Part shown: one piece after another, positions 21,223 to 30,841 of the stretch
Layout of the letters: every line of letters begins with the position of its first letter
How positions within the stretch are numbered: the first letter of the stretch is position 1
DNA from: Corynebacterium incognita
GTDB lineage: Bacteria > Actinomycetota > Actinomycetes > Mycobacteriales > Mycobacteriaceae
Assembly (NCBI RefSeq): GCF_014217255.1
Contig: NZ_CP059404.1
Span: 868,001-932,000, forward strand
DNA: 64,000 bases
Direction of reading: 5' to 3'
The notes under the pieces: generated by a model
What the model saw: only the letters and a program-made list of their open reading frames with translations
What the model was told of the DNA's origin: nothing
Databases searched by the model: none
Translations under genes and position numbers: made by a program

Positions 21223-21306
21223 GTCGGTTGCCACCGGGCGGGGTGCAAGCCCCCGCCCGCTAAGATGGGAGGCGGTAAAAATTTCGCGCACCCAACTGGA
21301 GGCAAC

Positions 21307-21783
21307 ATGAGCATCGAAGTGACCATCGAGATCCCAAAGGGCTCCCGTAACAAGTACGAGGTGGACCACGAGACCGGCAAGGTCTTCCTGGACCGCTACC
21401 TGTTCACCCCGATGGCCTACCCGGCTGACTACGGCTTCATCGACCACACCCTCGGCGAGGACGGCGACCCGCTGGACGCGCTGGTCATCCTGCCGGAGCC
21501 GGTCTTCCCGGGCGTCATCGTCAACGCGCGCCCGCTCGGCGTGTTCAAGATGACCGACGAGGCCGGCGGCGACGACAAGCTGCTCTGCATCGTCGACGAC
21601 GTTCGCTGGGAGCGCTACCAGGACATCGCGGACGTGGAGCAGCACGTCAAGGACGAGATCGAGCACTTCTTCACCCGCTACAAGGACCTCGAGCCAAACA
21701 AGGAAGTCACCGGCTCTGGCTGGGGCGACAAGGCTGAGGCGCAGCGCATCCTCGACGAGGCCATCGCGCGCTACAAGGCCTAA
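21307..21783 (+). CDS. ppa: Inorganic pyrophosphatase
   Basis: Ppa hydrolyses pyrophosphate to phosphate in the cytoplasm and pulls biosynthetic reactions forward. The 158-residue family I enzyme has [18 protein letters not shown] at residues 7-24, [22 protein letters not shown] near 39-60 with the metal-binding aspartates, and KPxE-like [15 protein letters not shown] near 90. The start ATG 21307 follows GGAGG at 21298-21302 with 4 nt spacing; a -10-like TAAGAT lies at 21260-21265. The gene diverges from dacB. Confidence 0.97.
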
Positions 21784-21933: not shown

Positions 21934-22905
21934 CTAAAGGTCGCGTAGCTCTCGACGCACCCACTCAGCAAGCTGGCTTGACCGCGGCCCTCCCACCGTC
22001 AGGTCCTCCGCCCGCACGCGCAGCACCCGATAGCCCGCGCCGCGGATCGCGTACTCACGCCCATGTTCCTCGCGCACCACCGCGTTGACATCCTCTCCAT
22101 ACGACTGCCCGTCGTATTTCACGCGACCGTCTACCTCAACCACGAGCCGACCGTTGACCAGAAAGTCCACGCGAAATCGGCGCTCCACGTCCCCCTTCCG
22201 CACAACCAGCAACGTCTGTGGCACCAACGATTGCAGCTCACCCTCCGCCAGCATCGCCTCCAGGATGACGCGCGCTTTCGTCTCCAGCGGCGAGTCCGCG
22301 CAATCCACCGACCGCATAATCACCTTGCGGAGACGTCCTTTCCCCCTGAACCGCGGCATCGCTTCCACCTGGGCCAACAGTGAGTCGCGGGAGCAGGAAG
22401 GCCAGCGGCGTCGCATAGCATCACAGACCACTAGCGCCTCCAGCTCATCGCCGTACGCCACGATGTCACGCATCGCGCGGAGCGGGTGAACAACTCGAGC
22501 TCCCTCAACGATGCGGATTTCAGGACTATCTACCGCGAGCTTGGCTGCACGGAACACCGCCCCGGGTGGGGTTTTGGTAGCTCCGGACACCTTGGTTCCA
22601 GGCATGAGCAGTTCAACTGTTGGGTCCTGAGTCAAGACGGGCAGGCGCCAAATCCGCGCGGCGGCAACACCTGTGACCACCGCTTTTCGCGCAGACCGCC
22701 CGCGCGCCACAGCGTGCGCCCGGGCCTTCTCCCACGGCGGGAGATTCTCATACAGTTCGCGGGGCACGGCCCACCAACCTGCCAGCTTGAGGTAGTCGCG
22801 CTCCCACACATGCAGAGCATCGTGGCCCAAGCGGTTGAGGTGGACAAGTCCGTATTCATTGTCAGCGGTCATAGTCGTGTTCATGCCCTTATCGTGCACA
22901 GTCAC
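21934..22905 (-). CDS. DUF559-type protein with PD-(D/E)XK-like nuclease domain
   Basis: The product is up to 323 residues (GTG 22905; ATG 22884 also possible). The N-terminal 160 residues resemble the winged-helix and linker region of actinobacterial AbiEi-like/DUF559 proteins. The C-terminal domain has a nuclease-like core RVDFLVNGRLVVEVDGRVKYD at about residues 240-260, with Asp followed by E-V-D-G, and then HGREYAIRGAGYRVLRVRAEDL, as in Vsr and DUF559 folds. Such proteins are often annotated as antitoxin-like, but no toxin gene lies beside it. It stands alone, divergent from the rhodanese gene. Nuclease activity is inference from the fold. Confidence 0.65.
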   Translation of the reverse strand: MTVHDKGMNTTMTADNEYGLVHLNRLGHDALHVWERDYLKLAGWWAVPRELYENLPPWEKARAHAVARGRSARKAVVTGVAAARIWRLPVLTQDPTVELLMPGTKVSGATKTPPGAVFRAAKLAVDSPEIRIVEGARVVHPLRAMRDIVAYGDELEALVVCDAMRRRWPSCSRDSLLAQVEAMPRFRGKGRLRKVIMRSVDCADSPLETKARVILEAMLAEGELQSLVPQTLLVVRKGDVERRFRVDFLVNGRLVVEVDGRVKYDGQSYGEDVNAVVREEHGREYAIRGAGYRVLRVRAEDLTVGGPRSSQLAEWVRRELRDL

Positions 22906-23048: not shown

Positions 23049-23351
23049 ATGAAAGAAGTCAACGTTTCTGAAGTTCCATCCGACGCTCAACTGATTGACG
23101 TGCGCGAGCCCGAGGAGTGGGCCGCGGACCACGCCGCGGGCGCCGTGCACATCCCGCTGGGCGAGGTCCCGGAGCGCGCGGGCGAGATTGCCCCGGACCG
23201 CGACATTTACATCATCTGCAAGTCCGGCGGGCGCAGCGCGCGTGCCGCGCAGTACCTGGAGCAGGCGCGCGGCTGGGAGGCCATCAACGTCGCGGGCGGT
23301 ACCGACGCGTGGCGCGAAGCGGGCCTGCCGATGGAGACGCCCGAAAACTAG
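23049..23351 (+). CDS. Single-domain rhodanese-like protein
   Basis: The 100-residue protein is one rhodanese domain: LIDVREPEEWAADHAAGAVHIPLGE at residues 16-40, the active-site loop CKSGGRSARAAQYL at about 59-72 with catalytic Cys, and GGTDAWREAGLPME at the end. It may carry sulfur as a persulfide in the cytoplasm. The start ATG 23049 is chosen because the reading upstream has no homology and TACACT sits 7 nt before it. It is a monocistronic gene, divergent from the DUF559 gene and followed by a long inverted repeat. The sulfur donor and acceptor are unknown. Confidence 0.88.
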   Translation: MKEVNVSEVPSDAQLIDVREPEEWAADHAAGAVHIPLGEVPERAGEIAPDRDIYIICKSGGRSARAAQYLEQARGWEAINVAGGTDAWREAGLPMETPEN

Positions 23352-23365
23352 CGCCACCCCACAAG

Positions 23366-23436
23366 CCGAGCGACAAACCTCTGGTTGACCCGCCGCTAGG
23401 GCCCGCATCAGGGCCAAGCAGAGGTTTGTCTCTCGG
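23366..23436. repeat. Long inverted repeat between rhodanese and marR genes
   Basis: Arms CCGAGCGACAAACCTCTGG.. (23366-23387) and 23415-23436 pair at 20 of 22 positions, with an unbroken 12-bp core GACAAACCTCTG/CAGAGGTTTGTC (23372-23383, 23419-23430). The 27-nt loop contains GGGCCCGCATCAGGGCC. It could end rhodanese transcription, but no T run follows directly (GGGTTTTGCC), so a regulatory or mobile origin is also possible. Confidence 0.7.
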
Positions 23437-23505
23437 GTTTTGCCACGGACCCGCCCCACACCCCGGCCCGCACACACCAACAAATAGTGGGCTTCAGCCC
23501 ATCAT

Positions 23506-23544
23506 TTGAGTTTGTAACCGTAGGAGGCATACTATGGTGGTATG
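23506..23544 (+). promoter_or_regulatory. Promoter and dyad operator of marR-pls operon
   Basis: A -35-like TTGAGT (23506-23511), 18-nt spacer and -10 TACTAT (23530-23535) lie just before ATG 23542, leaving 6 nt, so the message should be leaderless. A CATAC-N7-GTATG dyad (23528-23544) covers the -10 and the start codon, a natural site for autorepression by the MarR product. GTAGGAGG at 23520-23527 is 14 nt from the ATG, too far to act as Shine-Dalgarno. Confidence 0.55.
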
Positions 23545-24024
23545 TCTCTGAGCAATAACTCCGCTATCCCCACCGAACTGCTGGAATCCCCGTCATTCCA
23601 GCTGGAGCGCCTCCGCCGCCGCACCCGCGACGGCGTCGAAGCCGCACTCGCCACCCAAAAGACCACCCTGCGCGAATTCTGGGTCCTGACCTGCCTCGTA
23701 CACGCCGACGCCGCGTCCCAGTCTTACCTCTCCGAAATCCTGGCCATCGACGCCTCCGACATGGTGCGCCTCATCGACGCCCTCGAGGAGCGCAACTGGG
23801 CCAAGCGCGAGCGCGATCCCAAGGATCGCCGCCGTCAAATCGTGGCTGCCACCAAGCGTGGTGCCAAGACACAAAAGGAACTGGCCACCCTCGTCCTGGA
23901 CGCCGAGAACGAGGCCCTGGATCCGTCCACTGACAAGCAGCTCAAGCACCTGCGCAAGCTGGCCAAGTCCATCATCGCCGCCGACGTCGAACCCGATGCC
24001 GACGGCACGGAGAAGGAGTCTTAA
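23542..24024 (+). CDS. MarR family transcriptional regulator
   Basis: The 160-residue protein has the MarR winged helix-turn-helix: TLREFWVLTCLVHADAASQSYLSEIL (about residues 39-65), recognition helix around ASDMVRLIDALEERNWAKRERDPKDRRRQIVAATKRG (about 72-108) with the wing motif RDPKDRRRQ, and a C-terminal dimer helix. It likely represses its own operon; a CATAC-N7-GTATG dyad overlaps its promoter and start. The stop TAA abuts the ATG of the downstream synthetase with zero gap, so the regulator and the polymer synthetase are cotranscribed. The ligand is unknown. Confidence 0.88.
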   Translation: MSLSNNSAIPTELLESPSFQLERLRRRTRDGVEAALATQKTTLREFWVLTCLVHADAASQSYLSEILAIDASDMVRLIDALEERNWAKRERDPKDRRRQIVAATKRGAKTQKELATLVLDAENEALDPSTDKQLKHLRKLAKSIIAADVEPDADGTEKES

Positions 24025-27000
24025 ATGCCCCACGAGTTGGATTCTGACCAGCCAGACAGTCTTCGCGCGCAGGCCCCACAGCCTGCGCGCAGCGCATTAG
24101 AGACCGTTCCCCCGCAGTACCTCGCGGGCAACCTCGCCCCGCGCACCCGCACGCTCTACGACGTCCTGCGTACCACCGCGGAGCTCTACCCGGAGGCCGC
24201 CGCCATCGATGACGGCGAGGTGCTGACGTACTCCGAGTTGCTTGCCGACGTCGAGAGTTGGGCCGCCGAGCTCCGTCGCGGCGGCGTGCGCCGCGGCGAC
24301 CGCATTGGCGTGCGCATGTCGTCGGGTTCCCGCGATTTGTACCTGGCCATCCTAGCTACCATCGCCGCCGGCGCGGCGTACGTGCCCGTGGACGCGGATG
24401 ACCCTGACGAGCGCGCCGAAATGGTTTTCGGCGAGGCCGACATCGACGGCCTTTTCACCGACGAGGGCTTCCGCATGCTGCGCGAGACCACCGGCCGCCG
24501 GGCCGCCGGGCCGCCGCCGGATGAGTTTTACCCGCGCCCGGAGGACGACGCCTGGATCATCTTCACCTCCGGTTCCACCGGCAAGCCGAAGGGCGTGGCC
24601 GTCAGTCACCGTTCCGCGGCCGCTTTCGTGGACGCGGAGGCCGCTTTGTTCCTGGTCAACCACCCTGGCGGTCCGCTCGGCCCGGACGACCGCGTGCTCG
24701 CGGGCCTGTCCGTCGCCTTCGACGCCTCCTGCGAGGAGATGTGGCTGGCGTGGGGCCACGGCGCCTGCCTGGTGCCCGCGCCGCGTTCGCTGGTGCGCTC
24801 CGGCATGGACCTGGGCCCGTGGCTGATCCGCCGGGACATCACCGTGGTCTCCACGGTGCCGACCTTGGCCGGCCTGTGGCCCGCCGAGGCGCTGGATAAT
24901 ATCCGTCTGCTCATCGTCGGCGGCGAGGCCTGCTCCCAGGAGCTCGTCGATCGCCTGGCCACCCCTGAGCGCGAAATGTGGAACACGTACGGCCCCACCG
25001 AGGCGACCGTCGTGGCGTGTGCCGATCAGCTGCACCCGGGCCGCCCGGTGTCCATCGGCCTGCCGCTCAACGGCTGGGACCTGGTGGTCGTGGACGGCCA
25101 GGGCCAGCCGGTTGGTCTCGGCGAGGTGGGCGAACTGGTCATCGGCGGCGTTGGTTTGGCCCGCTACCTGGACCCGGCCAAGGACGCCGAGAAGTATGCG
25201 CCGTTGGAGTCCGTGGGCTGGGATCACGCTTACCGCACCGGCGACCACGTGCGCTTGGAGGAAGACGGCCTGTACTTCGTGGGCCGCGTGGACGATCAGG
25301 TGAAGATCGGCGGCCGCCGCATCGAGCTCGGTGAGGTCGAGGCGAACGTCGCCGCGCTGGATAACGTGTACAACTCCGCCGTGGCGGTGCAGTCCACCGC
25401 GGGCGGCGAGAAGGTGCTCGTTGGCTACGTGTCCTTGGAGGACCCGGACCGCGGCTTCGACCACGAGGCCGCGCACCAGCGCATGGCGGAGACCATGCCC
25501 GCGGCGCTCGTGCCGCGCATCTGCGTCATGGACGAGCTGCCCGTGCGTACCTCCGGCAAGGTGGACAAGAAGGCGCTGCCGTGGCCGCTGCCCGGCGTCG
25601 GCGTGGAGGCACAGGGTCTGACCCCGACCGAGTCCTGGCTCGCCGAGCTGTGGGTCGACGTCTTGGGCGTGTCCGTGGAGGACGAGAACGCCGACTTCTT
25701 CTCCTTGGGCGGCACCTCGCTGGCCGCGGCCACGTTGGTGGGCCGCATCCGCGAGCGCTTCCCGACGGTCGCGGTGCGCGACCTCTACGATCACCCCCGC
25801 CTTGGCTCCCTGGCCGAGCAGTTGGCGGGTGCGGAGGAGCGCCCACGGGACGTCGAGAAGCGCGTGGTGAAGCCGGTGGGCGCCGGGGTGCGCCTGGCGC
25901 AATTTATGTGGCAGCTCCCGGCCATGACGCTGTCCGGCACGTCCGTGCTGACCTGGCTGCTGCTGGGCTCCAACGCTGCACATCTTGCGGGCGTGGAGTG
26001 GGCGCCGCTGACCAACTGGTGGATCGTCCTGGCGATGTTCCTGGTGTTCCTGACCCCGCTGGGTCGCATCCCCATTGGCGGCTTCGGCGCGCGACTGCTC
26101 ACCGCCGGTATCACGCCGGGTGACTACCCGCGCGGCGGCTCGGTGCACCTGCGTATCTGGGCCGCGGAGCGCTGGGCAGATGCTTCTGGTTCGCGCTCGA
26201 TTGCTGGCGCTACCTGGGTGAACAACTACGCCCGCGCGTTGGGCGTGAAGGTGGGCCGCGGAGTGGACTTGCACTCCCTGCCGCCGGTCACCGGCCTGCT
26301 CACACTGGGCGACCACGCCGCCGTGGAGCCCGAGGTGGATCTGACGGGCTACTGGCTCGACGGCGACATCCTGCACCTGGGCGCCATTCAGATCGGCCCG
26401 AACGCGCGCATCGGCGCCCGCACCACGCTGCTTCCGGGCACCGTGGTGGGCAACGACGCGCACGTGGAGGCCGGCTCCACCGTCACGGGCGAGAAGAAGA
26501 TCAAAAAGGGTTCGCGCTGGTCCGGCTCCCCCGCCAAGAAGGTGGGTCGCTCCAAGCACCGCTTCCCGGACGAGCACCCGAAGCGCCGCCCGTGGTGGGT
26601 TCCCATCTACGGCCTGAGCTCCCTGGCGCTCGCGCTGCAGCCGGCCGTAGCCATCGGCCTGGGCGCGGTCGTGGTGGTCGCGCTGGTCGAGCTCCTGGGC
26701 GGCAATGCCTTCGCGGGCGGACTGTTCTTCGCCCCGCTCGGCGCCCTGGTGGCGTTCGCGGCCTACATGGCTATGACCTGGGTGGGCGTGCGCCTGCTCT
26801 CGCTGGGCCTGAAGCCGGGCGTGACCCCGGTCCGCTCCCTGAACGGCTGGCGCGTGTGGTTCATTGAACGCCTCATGGATGATGCGCGCACGCAGCTCTT
26901 CCCGCTGTACGCCTCGCAGCTGACCCCGTGGTGGTTCCGCTCGCTGGGCGCCAAGGTGGGCGCGGATGCGGAGATCTCCACGGCCGTGATGATCCCGAAG

Positions 27001-27993
27001 TTCGCGGACATCAAGGAAGGCTCCTTCCTGGCCGACGACACCATGATCGGCGGCTACGAGCTCGGCGGCGGCTGGGTGCTCACCGGCGAGTCCAAGGTGG
27101 GCAAGCGCTCCTTCGTGGGCAACTCCGGCATCACCGGCCCCGGCCGCAAGCTGGGCAAGAACTCGCTGGTGGCCGTACTGTCTTCCACTCCGAAGAAGTC
27201 CAAGGCCGGCTCGAACTGGTGGGGCTCCCCGCCGGAGCGCATGCGCCGCGTCGAGGCCACGTTTGCTGCCACCGACGGCGATGACGCCACCAACGCCGAG
27301 GCCCTTACCTACGCCCCGCCGCTGCGCTTGAAGGTGCTGCGCGCGATCGTCGAGACGCTGCGCCTGCTGGCTCCCATGACGTCCGCGATCCTGCTCGCGC
27401 TGGTGGCAGGCACCCTCCTGGTGCTGTACAAGGACTACGGCCTAGCCGTCGCGTGGGCATTGTCCGGTGTGGTTCTCATGGCGGCGGGCGCGCTGGCCAT
27501 GGGCATCACGGTGGCGGTGAAGTGGATTTGTGTGGGCCGCCACCGCGCGGCCGACCACCCGCTGTGGAGCTCCTTCGTGTGGCTCAATGAGCTGCAGGAC
27601 GCCTTCGTCGAGTCCGTGGCGGGGCCCTGGTTCTTCCAGCACACCATGGGTACCGGCGCGCTGAACATGGGTCTGCGCGCCCTGGGCGTGCACATCGGCC
27701 GCGGCGCATGGATCGAGTCCTACTGGTTCCCAGAGACAGACCTGTGCTTCGTGGGCCGCGGCGCCACGGTGGGCCCGGGCACGGTGGTGCAAACCCACCT
27801 GTTCCAGGACCGCGTCATGTCCCTAGACACGGTGACGCTTGCCGACGGCGCGACCCTCGCCCCGCACTCCGTCGCACTGCCGGCCTCCCGCATCGGCGAC
27901 GCCGCCACCGTCGGCCCCGGCTCGCTGGTCATGCGCGGCGACCAAGTGCCCGCCCAGTCCTACTGGCAGGGCAACCCCATCGAGCCGCGTTAG
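24025..27993 (+). CDS. Pls/PosA-type NRPS: amino-acid homopolymer synthetase
   Basis: This 1322-residue protein has the plan of Streptomyces albulus epsilon-poly-L-lysine synthetase Pls (about 1319 residues). An adenylation domain (residues about 45-520) has IIFTSGSTGKPKG at 178-190, NTYGPTE at 320-326, YRTGDHVRLEEDG and GRVDDQVKIGG near 405-430 and SGKVDKKALP near 512. A carrier domain follows with LGGTS, Ser565 being the phosphopantetheine site. Then come three modules, each with two membrane helices (about 630-690, 860-925, 1110-1165) and a hexapeptide-repeat segment (about 785-830, 985-1050, 1220-1315). There is no condensation or thioesterase domain. The pocket reads D233, A234, E237, then S, I, G, T, V, V and Lys, close to a lysine code. 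A basic amino-acid polymer is the likely product; this is inference. Confidence 0.9.
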   Translation: MPHELDSDQPDSLRAQAPQPARSALETVPPQYLAGNLAPRTRTLYDVLRTTAELYPEAAAIDDGEVLTYSELLADVESWAAELRRGGVRRGDRIGVRMSSGSRDLYLAILATIAAGAAYVPVDADDPDERAEMVFGEADIDGLFTDEGFRMLRETTGRRAAGPPPDEFYPRPEDDAWIIFTSGSTGKPKGVAVSHRSAAAFVDAEAALFLVNHPGGPLGPDDRVLAGLSVAFDASCEEMWLAWGHGACLVPAPRSLVRSGMDLGPWLIRRDITVVSTVPTLAGLWPAEALDNIRLLIVGGEACSQELVDRLATPEREMWNTYGPTEATVVACADQLHPGRPVSIGLPLNGWDLVVVDGQGQPVGLGEVGELVIGGVGLARYLDPAKDAEKYAPLESVGWDHAYRTGDHVRLEEDGLYFVGRVDDQVKIGGRRIELGEVEANVAALDNVYNSAVAVQSTAGGEKVLVGYVSLEDPDRGFDHEAAHQRMAETMPAALVPRICVMDELPVRTSGKVDKKALPWPLPGVGVEAQGLTPTESWLAELWVDVLGVSVEDENADFFSLGGTSLAAATLVGRIRERFPTVAVRDLYDHPRLGSLAEQLAGAEERPRDVEKRVVKPVGAGVRLAQFMWQLPAMTLSGTSVLTWLLLGSNAAHLAGVEWAPLTNWWIVLAMFLVFLTPLGRIPIGGFGARLLTAGITPGDYPRGGSVHLRIWAAERWADASGSRSIAGATWVNNYARALGVKVGRGVDLHSLPPVTGLLTLGDHAAVEPEVDLTGYWLDGDILHLGAIQIGPNARIGARTTLLPGTVVGNDAHVEAGSTVTGEKKIKKGSRWSGSPAKKVGRSKHRFPDEHPKRRPWWVPIYGLSSLALALQPAVAIGLGAVVVVALVELLGGNAFAGGLFFAPLGALVAFAAYMAMTWVGVRLLSLGLKPGVTPVRSLNGWRVWFIERLMDDARTQLFPLYASQLTPWWFRSLGAKVGADAEISTAVMIPKFADIKEGSFLADDTMIGGYELGGGWVLTGESKVGKRSFVGNSGITGPGRKLGKNSLVAVLSSTPKKSKAGSNWWGSPPERMRRVEATFAATDGDDATNAEALTYAPPLRLKVLRAIVETLRLLAPMTSAILLALVAGTLLVLYKDYGLAVAWALSGVVLMAAGALAMGITVAVKWICVGRHRAADHPLWSSFVWLNELQDAFVESVAGPWFFQHTMGTGALNMGLRALGVHIGRGAWIESYWFPETDLCFVGRGATVGPGTVVQTHLFQDRVMSLDTVTLADGATLAPHSVALPASRIGDAATVGPGSLVMRGDQVPAQSYWQGNPIEPR

Positions 27994-29627
27994 CGCGCGA
28001 AGTCCTGGTACTTGATCATCTCGTTCTTGCGGAAGTCCCAGGCCTCTACGCGGACGCGGTCCGAGTAGGTCTTCACGCGCAAGCCCGTGATCGATCCCTC
28101 GTCCACGATGGTCTCATCGTGGTCGCCGCCCGGGCGGTACTCGTTGGTGATGGCGCCGGTGTTGACCACCGGGAAGCCCTTCTTGCCGGCTTCACCGGTG
28201 CCGTCGTAGCGGCGCATCCCCCACCAGTCGTTCTGCTGCAGGCTGGAATGAGTGTGGCTGGTAAACGCCACGATGTTGTTGTACTTGTTCAGTACGTTGG
28301 ATAGCGCCTCAAGATCCTCAAAGTCGTTTTGGTACCACGCCGAGTGCGTCATGGACACCGTCTGTGGCAGCACCGGGTGAGTAAACACCAGCGGGGTCAC
28401 GCCGCGGGACGTCCAGTAGCCGACGCGCTCGTCCAACCAGTTGAGCTGCTCCTCGGAAAGGCGCTGGAAGGGCTCCTTGCCGTCGCGGTCCACGTCAGAG
28501 TAGTACTCGGTGTTAATAGAGATGAGCGGAACGCCGCCAGCCATCTTCTCCGTGTACGGCTTGTCCTGGCCGGAGTACTTGAGGAAGCGCTCCAGGTTCT
28601 TCTCCGAGCCGTCCGGCCCGTACATTTCATGATTACCGATGGTCCACAGTTCCGCCTCGGCATCATGCGGCTCAGCACGGTGCGCAGCCAGGAACTCGTC
28701 CCACAAGTGCTGCTCGCCCGTGTTCACCAAGTCGCCGTTGAGCACCAGTGCGTCGGCCTTGTCTTCCATGGCGTTGAGATGGCGAATCGCCTGCTGGTAT
28801 TCCTTGGTATCGCCCTGAATATCGGACAGCACGTCCACGATTGATTCTGGCTCGCCCGGGAGCTCGCCCAACGGCTCGGAAACGGCAACGTTATCGATGG
28901 CCCACCACCAGTCGTCGTTCCCACCCAGATAGTCAAAGCGCACCTTCATGTCCTGCGCCCCAGCGGGGACCTCCACGTTGAGGTTCTCGTGGGCGGAGAA
29001 TTCATCAGCGGTGTACTGCTTGACGACGTCCCCTTCCCCACCGTCGAAGGACACCGTCACGGTGGCCTTCTGGTCCGGGGAGCCTTGGCGGTAGTGGTGG
29101 TCAAATGTCAGCGCCACGCGGTCTTGCGCGGCCACGGGAATGTCGGGGGTGATGAGTCCGGCGTCCATGGAGTCGGTGGCGTTGAGTCGCTGCTGCTTGG
29201 AGTCGATGACCGCGATCTGGTCGTGCGCCCCGGTGAACCAGTGCCGCATGTCCGTGCCAGCGGCCCACGTCCAGTGGCGAATGTCCGTGAGAGTCCACCC
29301 CTTCCACCGCGCTTCACCGGAGGTCACGCCGGTATCCTCGCTGGCCCAGCCTTCTGGAACCTTGTGGGTGAAATGCACCGGGTTAGGCACCTCATCAAAC
29401 GACTCGGACCACAGCGTCTCGCCCGCATCACCGGTACCTGCTGGAGCGTCGTCACCAGGACGCGAAGACCCGGACGAGTTCGAGGAACCGCTAGAGGAAC
29501 CAAGAAGCGACGTTGGCAGAGAAGAGGACAGCGACGACTGCGCGCCGGCCGTCGGGGCAACAGCAGTGGTGACAACAAGGGCAGAGGCGAGCAGCGCAAA
29601 CGAGCGCGAATTAGGGATATGTTTCAT
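27990..29627 (-). CDS. Secreted calcineurin-like metallophosphoesterase
   Basis: The 545-residue protein starts at ATG 29627 with a signal peptide (FALLASALVVTTAVAPTAGA) and a Ser-rich segment. The first half (about residues 80-250) resembles a beta-sandwich carbohydrate or MAM-like domain (LTFDHHYRQGS, DMKVRFDYLGGND). The metallophosphoesterase half has VDVLSDIQG near 265, LVLNGDLVNTG near 290, WTIGNHEMYG near 325, FTHPVLPQT near 415 and AFTSHTHSS near 455, covering the metal-binding Asp, Asn and His residues. It should hydrolyse a phosphoester outside the membrane. Its stop overlaps the stop of the convergent synthetase gene by 4 bp; no functional link is shown. Confidence 0.85.
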   Translation of the reverse strand: MKHIPNSRSFALLASALVVTTAVAPTAGAQSSLSSSLPTSLLGSSSGSSNSSGSSRPGDDAPAGTGDAGETLWSESFDEVPNPVHFTHKVPEGWASEDTGVTSGEARWKGWTLTDIRHWTWAAGTDMRHWFTGAHDQIAVIDSKQQRLNATDSMDAGLITPDIPVAAQDRVALTFDHHYRQGSPDQKATVTVSFDGGEGDVVKQYTADEFSAHENLNVEVPAGAQDMKVRFDYLGGNDDWWWAIDNVAVSEPLGELPGEPESIVDVLSDIQGDTKEYQQAIRHLNAMEDKADALVLNGDLVNTGEQHLWDEFLAAHRAEPHDAEAELWTIGNHEMYGPDGSEKNLERFLKYSGQDKPYTEKMAGGVPLISINTEYYSDVDRDGKEPFQRLSEEQLNWLDERVGYWTSRGVTPLVFTHPVLPQTVSMTHSAWYQNDFEDLEALSNVLNKYNNIVAFTSHTHSSLQQNDWWGMRRYDGTGEAGKKGFPVVNTGAITNEYRPGGDHDETIVDEGSITGLRVKTYSDRVRVEAWDFRKNEMIKYQDFAR

Positions 29628-29710
29628 GGGTTTTACTTTGCCCACTAAGGGGAAAACCCAAATCAACGTTAAATTAAGATTTGTTTAACAATTAGCGTTT
29701 GGGGACAGCA

Positions 29711-29786: not shown

Positions 29787-30686
29787 CTAGTCGCCGATTT
29801 GGTCGCGGCCGCGCATGACGATCTTGTCATCCGGCTCGCCAACGACGTCGTGGTCCTTGTTGGTGTATTCAAACTTGGACAGGACGTAGCGCATCGCGTT
29901 GATACGGGCGCGCTTCTTGTCATTGGATTTGATGGTGATCCACGGGGACTCTTCGGTGTCCGTGTAGCGGAACTGCTCTTCCTTGGCACGGGTGTAGTCA
30001 TCCCACTTGTCCAGGGAGGCCAAGTCCATCGGAGAAAGCTTCCACTGGCGCACGGGATCGATCTGGCGGATGGCGAAGCGGGTGCGCTGCTCCTTGCGGG
30101 TCACGGAGAACCACAGCTTGGTCAAAGAAATACCGGAGCCCAGGATCATGTTCTCCAGCATGGGAACCTCACGGAGGAACTCGGCGTGCTGGGATTCGGT
30201 GCAGAAGCCCATGACGCGTTCGACGCCGGAGCGGTTGTACCAGGAGCGGTCGAAGAACACGATCTCGCCGCCGGCCGGGAAGTGCTGGATGTAGCGCTGG
30301 AAGTACCAGGAGGTGGACTCGCGCGGGGAGGGCTTCTCCAACGCCACGGTGCGGGCACCACGCGGGTTGAGGTGCTCGTTGAAGCGCTTGATGGTGCCGC
30401 CCTTACCTGCGGCGTCGCGGCCCTCGAACAAGATGATGTGGCGCTGGCCGGTTTCCTTGGTCCAGTTCTGCCACTTCAGCAGCTCAATCTGCAGGGAGCG
30501 CTTGGTCTTTTCGTACTCGTCGCGCGTCATGCGTTCCTCGTACGGGTAGTTCTCACGCCACGTTTCGATAGGGGAACCGTCCGGCTTGAGCAGGGCGGGA
30601 TCGTCCTCATCAGAGTCGTCGACTACGTAGCCGTCGGTTTGCGCCAGGTCAATCTCCGGCAGTTCGTCGTCTTTTTTGTCAGCCAT
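29787..30686 (-). CDS. ppk2: Polyphosphate kinase 2 (PPK2)
   Basis: PPK2 transfers phosphate between polyphosphate and nucleoside diphosphates. The 299-residue product from ATG 30686 has Walker A FEGRDAAGKGGTIKR near residues 104-118, the lid region EKPSPRESTSWYFQRYIQHFP near 135-155 and Walker B VFFDRSWYNRSGVERVMGF near 163-181, all of a single-domain class I-like PPK2. An acidic N-terminal tail (DDSDEDDPALL) precedes the domain. The gene lies downstream of porA, as cg3007 does in C. glutamicum, but a perfect hairpin separates them, so it probably has its own promoter. Confidence 0.93.
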   Translation of the reverse strand: MADKKDDELPEIDLAQTDGYVVDDSDEDDPALLKPDGSPIETWRENYPYEERMTRDEYEKTKRSLQIELLKWQNWTKETGQRHIILFEGRDAAGKGGTIKRFNEHLNPRGARTVALEKPSPRESTSWYFQRYIQHFPAGGEIVFFDRSWYNRSGVERVMGFCTESQHAEFLREVPMLENMILGSGISLTKLWFSVTRKEQRTRFAIRQIDPVRQWKLSPMDLASLDKWDDYTRAKEEQFRYTDTEESPWITIKSNDKKRARINAMRYVLSKFEYTNKDHDVVGEPDDKIVMRGRDQIGD

Positions 30687-30776
30687 AACTACAAGTTTAG
30701 CCCCTACCGGGAACTCGGGCGCGGTGAACAGCCATATCACTTCCGGGCCATGGAACGGACCTACCCCAGGCATGCA

Positions 30777-30806
30777 AAAGGCCCCAACCAGAAGGTTGGG
30801 GCCTTT
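30777..30806 (-). terminator. Rho-independent terminator after porA
   Basis: A perfect 13-bp stem AAAGGCCCCAACC/GGTTGGGGCCTTT closes a 4-nt loop. On the minus strand the stem is followed by TTTTGC. It lies 35 nt after porA and upstream of ppk2. Confidence 0.85.
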
Positions 30807-30841
30807 CAAGAAAGCTAGCTACTTGCGTAGCAGGGCTTTAC

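Follow-up and report, generated by a model that had tools for sequence, protein, structure and literature searches.

Epsilon-polylysine (ePL) is a natural antimicrobial that serves as a food preservative. In Streptomyces albulus, the pls gene for the ePL synthetase is translationally coupled to pldII, which is needed for self-protection against ePL, according to the available portion of the source (PMC9223678). Within the genus Corynebacterium, the accessible part of a study of C. variabile (PMC8117764) describes an ePL synthetase the cloned gene of which, driven by the S. albulus pls promoter, yielded ePL in culture extracts of S. coelicolor M145; C. variabile itself produced no detectable ePL in culture, and in C. 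glutamicum the protein was expressed and no ePL was made, an unknown trigger being supposed for production in C. variabile. The same part reports that, among isolates from cheese and skin, pls homologs are present in 10 of the 12 assigned to Corynebacterium and 14 of the 15 assigned to Brevibacterium, so that both this kind of enzyme and its presence in the genus are already known. PosA of Acinetobacter baumannii (PDB 8G95-8G98) makes delta-poly-L-ornithine, yet its pocket code, DMEHNGTVSK, is nearest to that of a bacitracin synthetase lysine domain, which indicates that pocket codes can mislead, and poly-diaminopropionate (PDAP) synthetases follow the rule of a phenylalanine at the second pocket position (PMC10522769).

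The window analyzed here, a 64,000-nt stretch of the Corynebacterium incognita genome (GCF_014217255.1, NZ_CP059404.1, 868,001-932,000, forward strand), contains a gene that is well supported, by sequence and structural model, as coding for an ePL synthetase; enzymes of this kind, and their presence in the genus, were known before. New in this case are the native corynebacterial clade to which the enzyme belongs, the pairing of pls with a marR gene and a palindrome, an unlinked, co-inherited PldII-like peptidase, and a motif present in a single repeat. Taken as a whole, the locus is, in our assessment, quite probably best explained by an ePL synthetase encoded in a MarR-repressed gene pair, with protection by the unlinked PldII-like enzyme.

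Domain architecture and substrate of the synthetase

An initial annotation of the window had described a 1322-residue frame with one adenylation domain, one carrier domain with Ser565 and no condensation or thioesterase domain, on the plan of the S. albulus synthetase, and the analysis agrees with it on each of these points (Table 1). Pfam searches matched four families in all at E ≤ 1e-3, including an AMP-binding domain (residues 49-380, 2.3e-59), the carrier domain (6.4e-15) and a single hexapeptide stretch (788-822), which was detected in just one of the three C-terminal repeats; no condensation or thioesterase domain was matched at this threshold. Ser565 is a serine in all 81 aligned proteins, the window protein included. 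The C-terminal domain scores 773.9 bits against a cut-off of 423.1 for the NCBIfam family TIGR02353 ('Pls/PosA family non-ribosomal peptide synthetase') and is the sole match above the cut-off in the 2.35-Mb genome. The closest named relative comes from C. minutissimum (79%), which fits a Corynebacterium origin. The S. albulus enzyme is alike in architecture, pocket code and fold, the two adenylation domains agreeing at 305 of 480 aligned residues, and the C. variabile synthetase, as described in the accessible part of PMC8117764, has the same architecture and pocket code.

Table 1. Features of the marR-pls locus (positions within the window)
Feature	Position	Strand	Basis
Imperfect palindrome CAAATAGTGGGCTTCAGCCCATCATTTG, candidate operator/promoter element	23481..23508	+	28 bp; 13-nt arms, 85% complementary
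marR, MarR-family regulator, 160 aa	23542..24024	+	Pfam MarR 1.6e-11
pls, Pls/PosA-type synthetase, 1322 aa	24025..27993	+	ATG start, no internal stops; best solved relative 7wew
Adenylation domain, residues 33-524, pocket DAESIGTVVK	24121..25596	+	pocket alignment
Carrier (thiolation) domain, residues 538-599, Ser565	25636..25821	+	Pfam; Ser565 in 81/81
C-terminal polymerization/membrane domain, residues 625-1319, three repeats	25897..27981	+	TIGR02353; AlphaFold2 model
QTHLFQDR motif, residues 1256-1263, putative catalytic site	27790..27813	+	conservation

The pocket residues are 233, 234, 237, 276, 297, 299, 321, 329, 330 and 512; the resulting ten-residue code is the one previously read by eye and is identical at all ten positions to that of the solved Streptomyces ePL synthetase (7wew). 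The second position is occupied by Ala234, not by the Met of the PosA type or the Phe of PDAP synthetases. The enzyme could still polymerize ornithine, diaminobutyrate, diaminopropionate, beta-lysine or a mixture of these, given that related synthetases for such substrates exist (PMC8117764, accessible part; PMC10522769) and that PosA combines a code closest to a lysine domain with ornithine as the substrate. However, the codes of the other types all differ from that of the window protein (PosA as given above, DGESISVVNK for the beta-lysine type, DFEYLGTVTK for PDAP-like paralogs), which equals 7wew throughout and is placed by the tree among ePL-type synthetases, and we regard a different polymer as very improbable. 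Lysine, the substrate originally proposed, is thus favored on computational grounds throughout (sequence, model and phylogeny), and the product is very probably ePL. The cytosolic adenylation domain would activate L-lysine with ATP and load it onto the phosphopantetheine arm carried by Ser565. The C-terminal domain, embedded in the membrane, would join the lysines via their epsilon-amino groups and, very likely, pass the polymer chain out of the cell.

The C-terminal domain and a candidate polymerization site

Six helices and three repeated modules had also been predicted for the C-terminal half. Hydropathy alone is less clear on this point, with five strong peaks, a weaker one (631-649) and one further weak one (915-933), but the AlphaFold2 model (mean pLDDT 90.9, pTM 0.90; model residue n is protein residue 600+n) bears the prediction out. 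It contains three pairs of long helices (620-654/665-692, 858-891/895-926 and 1115-1138/1140-1170; helix 665-692 has a break at residue 677), with beta-helix turns after each pair, so that six membrane helices in three pairs separate three soluble repeats in the model. As modeled, the C-terminal domain would thus place three beta-helices of the hexapeptide-acyltransferase type on six membrane helices, all within one chain, as a pseudo-trimer; fold comparison pertains mainly to the first beta-helix (model residues 121-246) and barely covers the membrane helices and the other two repeats.

The motif QTHLFxDR occurs once in the protein, in the third repeat, and is among the features of the C-terminal family that the window enzyme has in common with PDAP-type synthetases. 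His1258 is retained in all 47 rows that have a residue at this position, four PDAP-like paralogs among them, and is the only histidine of residues 601-1322 that is conserved across every row. The location of the sole invariant C-terminal histidine in the third repeat suggests one polymerization site; a complete catalytic site, putatively His1258, Asp1262 and Arg1263, would be found only in this repeat. The PDAP-like paralogs (L240, L241, L242 and L247), 32-34% identical to the window protein, owe their name to the Phe rule (PMC10522769) and not to comparison with a characterized sequence; they are found beside an ePL-type copy in three genomes from other genera of the family.

Distribution and phylogeny

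Presence of the gene across the genus, a comparison to which the initial annotation had pointed, was surveyed in 201 Corynebacterium genomes (the C. incognita genome and 200 drawn), and the Pls/PosA family exceeds the cut-off in 152 of these. The window class recurs at the same location (ppa, rhodanese, marR, pls, ppk2, groEL), and ppa, marR, ppk2 and groEL remain in two genomes lacking pls (L118 and L120), as would be expected if pls was gained or lost at a single site. Two neighbors considered as energy partners of the synthetase, inorganic pyrophosphatase (21265-21783) and polyphosphate kinase 2 (29787-30809), were rejected because both persist in these two genomes. Between ppa and the rhodanese gene, there is a 323-aa open reading frame (21934-22905, minus strand) with no Pfam or NCBIfam match at E ≤ 1e-3. 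A calcineurin-like phosphoesterase gene (27990-29666, minus strand) is convergent to pls, the ends of the two genes overlapping by four bases; it is also found in L003, L004, L010 and L122 and not in the other corynebacterial loci compared.

In a phylogeny computed over 1150 residues from 45 proteins (quick method; support by SH-aLRT only; rooted at the midpoint), a set that leaves outside the full-length S. albulus Pls and the characterized non-lysine enzymes, the window protein groups with ePL-type synthetases, the confirmed C. variabile type being represented by G160. It belongs to a marR-linked corynebacterial clade of 13 rows (support 100), the nearest row to which is from Dietzia (94, below the 95 mark); one of the 13 (L010) is titled as a Mycobacteriaceae MAG and has the corynebacterial gene order. 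A pldII-linked corynebacterial clade (4 rows, 100) is located beside Compostimonas (99), and a divergent corynebacterial clade consists of 7 rows (100). A Streptomyces protein annotated as Pls (L256) falls outside the fork of 33 rows, at an unresolved fork with the divergent class. Members of this class (L225, L226, L227, L228 and L243-L246) are about 43-45% identical to the window protein, with the code DAESIGTVIK or DAESIGTIIK, and in G003, G030 and G161 the class occurs without a PldII-like peptidase. Pls relatives are encoded on plasmids as well: among 72,556 records, 45 give a match at E ≤ 1e-60, and in 18 of these the match spans at least 80% of the query. Examples are NZ_CP059000.1 and NZ_AP012556.1 (Mycobacterium avium), the identity for M. 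avium being 54%.

G160 is about 52% identical to the window protein, groups with Compostimonas and is encoded beside a pldII-like gene, not marR. It starts with CLTDVVKL and ends with AYQSTT, the ends encoded by the published C. variabile primers (PMC8117764, accessible part). Together with the pldII linkage, this match indicates that the enzyme tested in 2021 belongs to the pldII-linked class; in the literature examined, including that part of PMC8117764, no test of the marR-linked majority class was found.

An unlinked PldII-like peptidase

In contrast to S. albulus, where pls and pldII are coupled (PMC9223678, available portion), the window gene follows marR, and the operon with a PldII peptidase, which is typical of ePL synthetases without defining them, is absent here. 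The PldII-like homolog, a 449-aa M1 peptidase with an HELSH motif, is encoded 567 kb from pls (G000:C1:1462766-1464115); the label 'PldII-like' reflects membership of peptidase family M1, protein length and a location next to pls. An M1 peptidase of about 445 aa adjoins or closely follows pls in 69 of the 70 loci from outside the corynebacterial group (the contig of the 70th ends at pls), and none was found in the flanks (about 6 kb) of 10 loci of the corynebacterial group. A reverse search with the peptidase gave one strong match in each of 67 non-Corynebacterium pls genomes, five of which have a second, far weaker one. In 64 of these 67 genomes of the family, the peptidase gene is on the same strand within 3 kb downstream of pls; in the other three it lies 4 kb away (G211), 8.7 kb away (G251) or on a different contig (G236). 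No relatives of the peptidase were detected in the viral contigs scanned.

Among the 201 Corynebacterium genomes, 147 encode both Pls and the peptidase, 4 Pls only, 2 the peptidase only and 48 neither (Fisher p 5e-39, with relatedness ignored); the count uses our own E-value split, under which 151 genomes are Pls-positive versus 152 by the family cut-off. Among the six exceptions, the divergent Pls class (about 45%) is the only one present in G003, G030 and G161, and the others are G091 (77% complete), G129, with a Pls piece of 67% identity, and G077 (77% complete). Two genomes scored as having neither (G099 and G176) contain pieces of the divergent class, and one scored as having both (G100) has a fragmented Pls. 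The two genes are kept or lost together even though they are unlinked here, which argues for a real protective partnership, whereby the peptidase would confer self-protection.

The marR gene and the upstream palindrome

The stop codon of marR directly abuts the start codon of pls, and marR immediately precedes pls in 111 of the 117 Corynebacterium genomes that are among the matches listed for both genes; of the remaining six, five are pldII-linked and one has a wider gap between marR and pls. The pair probably forms a co-transcribed two-gene unit, with pls second. No publication on the marR-pls pair or on MarR control of pls was found in a search conducted mostly by title and abstract start, and at the same level the literature on pls and CHPA synthetases of Corynebacterium, Mycobacterium and Rhodococcus contains no such pair.

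The strict core of the palindrome upstream of marR is present in 13 of 41 regions preceding marR (that of the window plus 40 chosen from the marR matches), compared to 1.1 expected from mononucleotide shuffles, and its arms change together (TGGG/CCCA, TTGG/CCAA); because the genomes are related, these occurrences are not independent. A weight matrix derived from the 13 sites (leave-one-out) identifies the element in 29 of the 41 regions at P ≤ 0.01 by shuffles and fails in 12. The consensus core has one exact match in the genome, the next best having two mismatches, and within three mismatches there are 18 matches, near the control (15). No sigma-70 consensus was found in 23300-24100. The palindrome is read as a candidate operator or promoter element, through which MarR most likely represses the marR-pls pair.

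Alternatively, the palindrome could be the terminator of the upstream rhodanese gene. It was found in seven of the nine loci examined, and in four of these seven it is located 1-5 nt after the rhodanese stop; moreover, it scores as terminator-like on both strands, and pairing-preserving changes in the arms suit an RNA hairpin equally well. The spacing to marR, however, is steady across the seven loci (37-55 nt), whereas the distance to the rhodanese stop varies from 1 to 649 nt, and in the window no tight T run follows the palindrome. A terminator is, accordingly, possible but doubtful, and we prefer the operator reading.

MarR has matches at E ≤ 1e-5 in 186 of the 201 Corynebacterium genomes, many of them without pls; the weaker matches may be paralogs. 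The main function of the regulator may therefore be a different one, the more so as three of seven sampled genomes that lack an ePL-type pls still keep the palindrome. A regulon shared by pls and pldII was rejected: the matrix identifies 0 of 21 regions before pldII at P ≤ 0.01, and the core occurs in 1 of 21 versus 0.5 expected. A second inverted repeat, with 32-nt arms that are 84% complementary and 19 nt apart, is located at 23360-23442, between the rhodanese gene and the marR palindrome.

Role of the polymer

Since ePL was obtained neither from C. variabile nor from its gene in C. glutamicum, the window gene may likewise not be active under laboratory conditions. In another reading, polylysine would be retained within the mycolate envelope or on its surface, serving as a cationic coat or store rather than as an excreted antimicrobial: pls belongs to a conserved housekeeping neighborhood (ppa, dacB, ppk2, groEL), the prevalence of the family in the genus (152/201) looks more like that of a core trait than of a sporadic antibiotic, and excreted ePL was not seen from C. 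variabile (PMC8117764, accessible part). Nevertheless, the PldII partner serves for self-protection against ePL in S. albulus (PMC9223678, available portion), and the C. variabile enzyme gave ePL in culture extracts when expressed in S. coelicolor, which leaves retention in the envelope rather unlikely in our estimate.

A joint scenario can be offered, tentatively and with more doubt than confidence. Under it, MarR would be the switch that has been missing, silencing ePL production in corynebacteria via a dedicated palindrome that matches the genome exactly once; the majority enzyme would be an anciently inherited core trait and not an acquired antibiotic; and Pls would have one polymerization site (His1258/Asp1262/Arg1263), located in the third beta-helix of an acyltransferase-like pseudo-trimer fused into one chain and common to the diaminopropionate-type enzymes. 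The invariant motif in one of the three repeats provides a concrete target for the question of how Pls links lysines without a condensation domain, and with a conserved regulator-synthetase pair and a candidate operator, the question of the ePL trigger becomes testable in the majority class of these enzymes.
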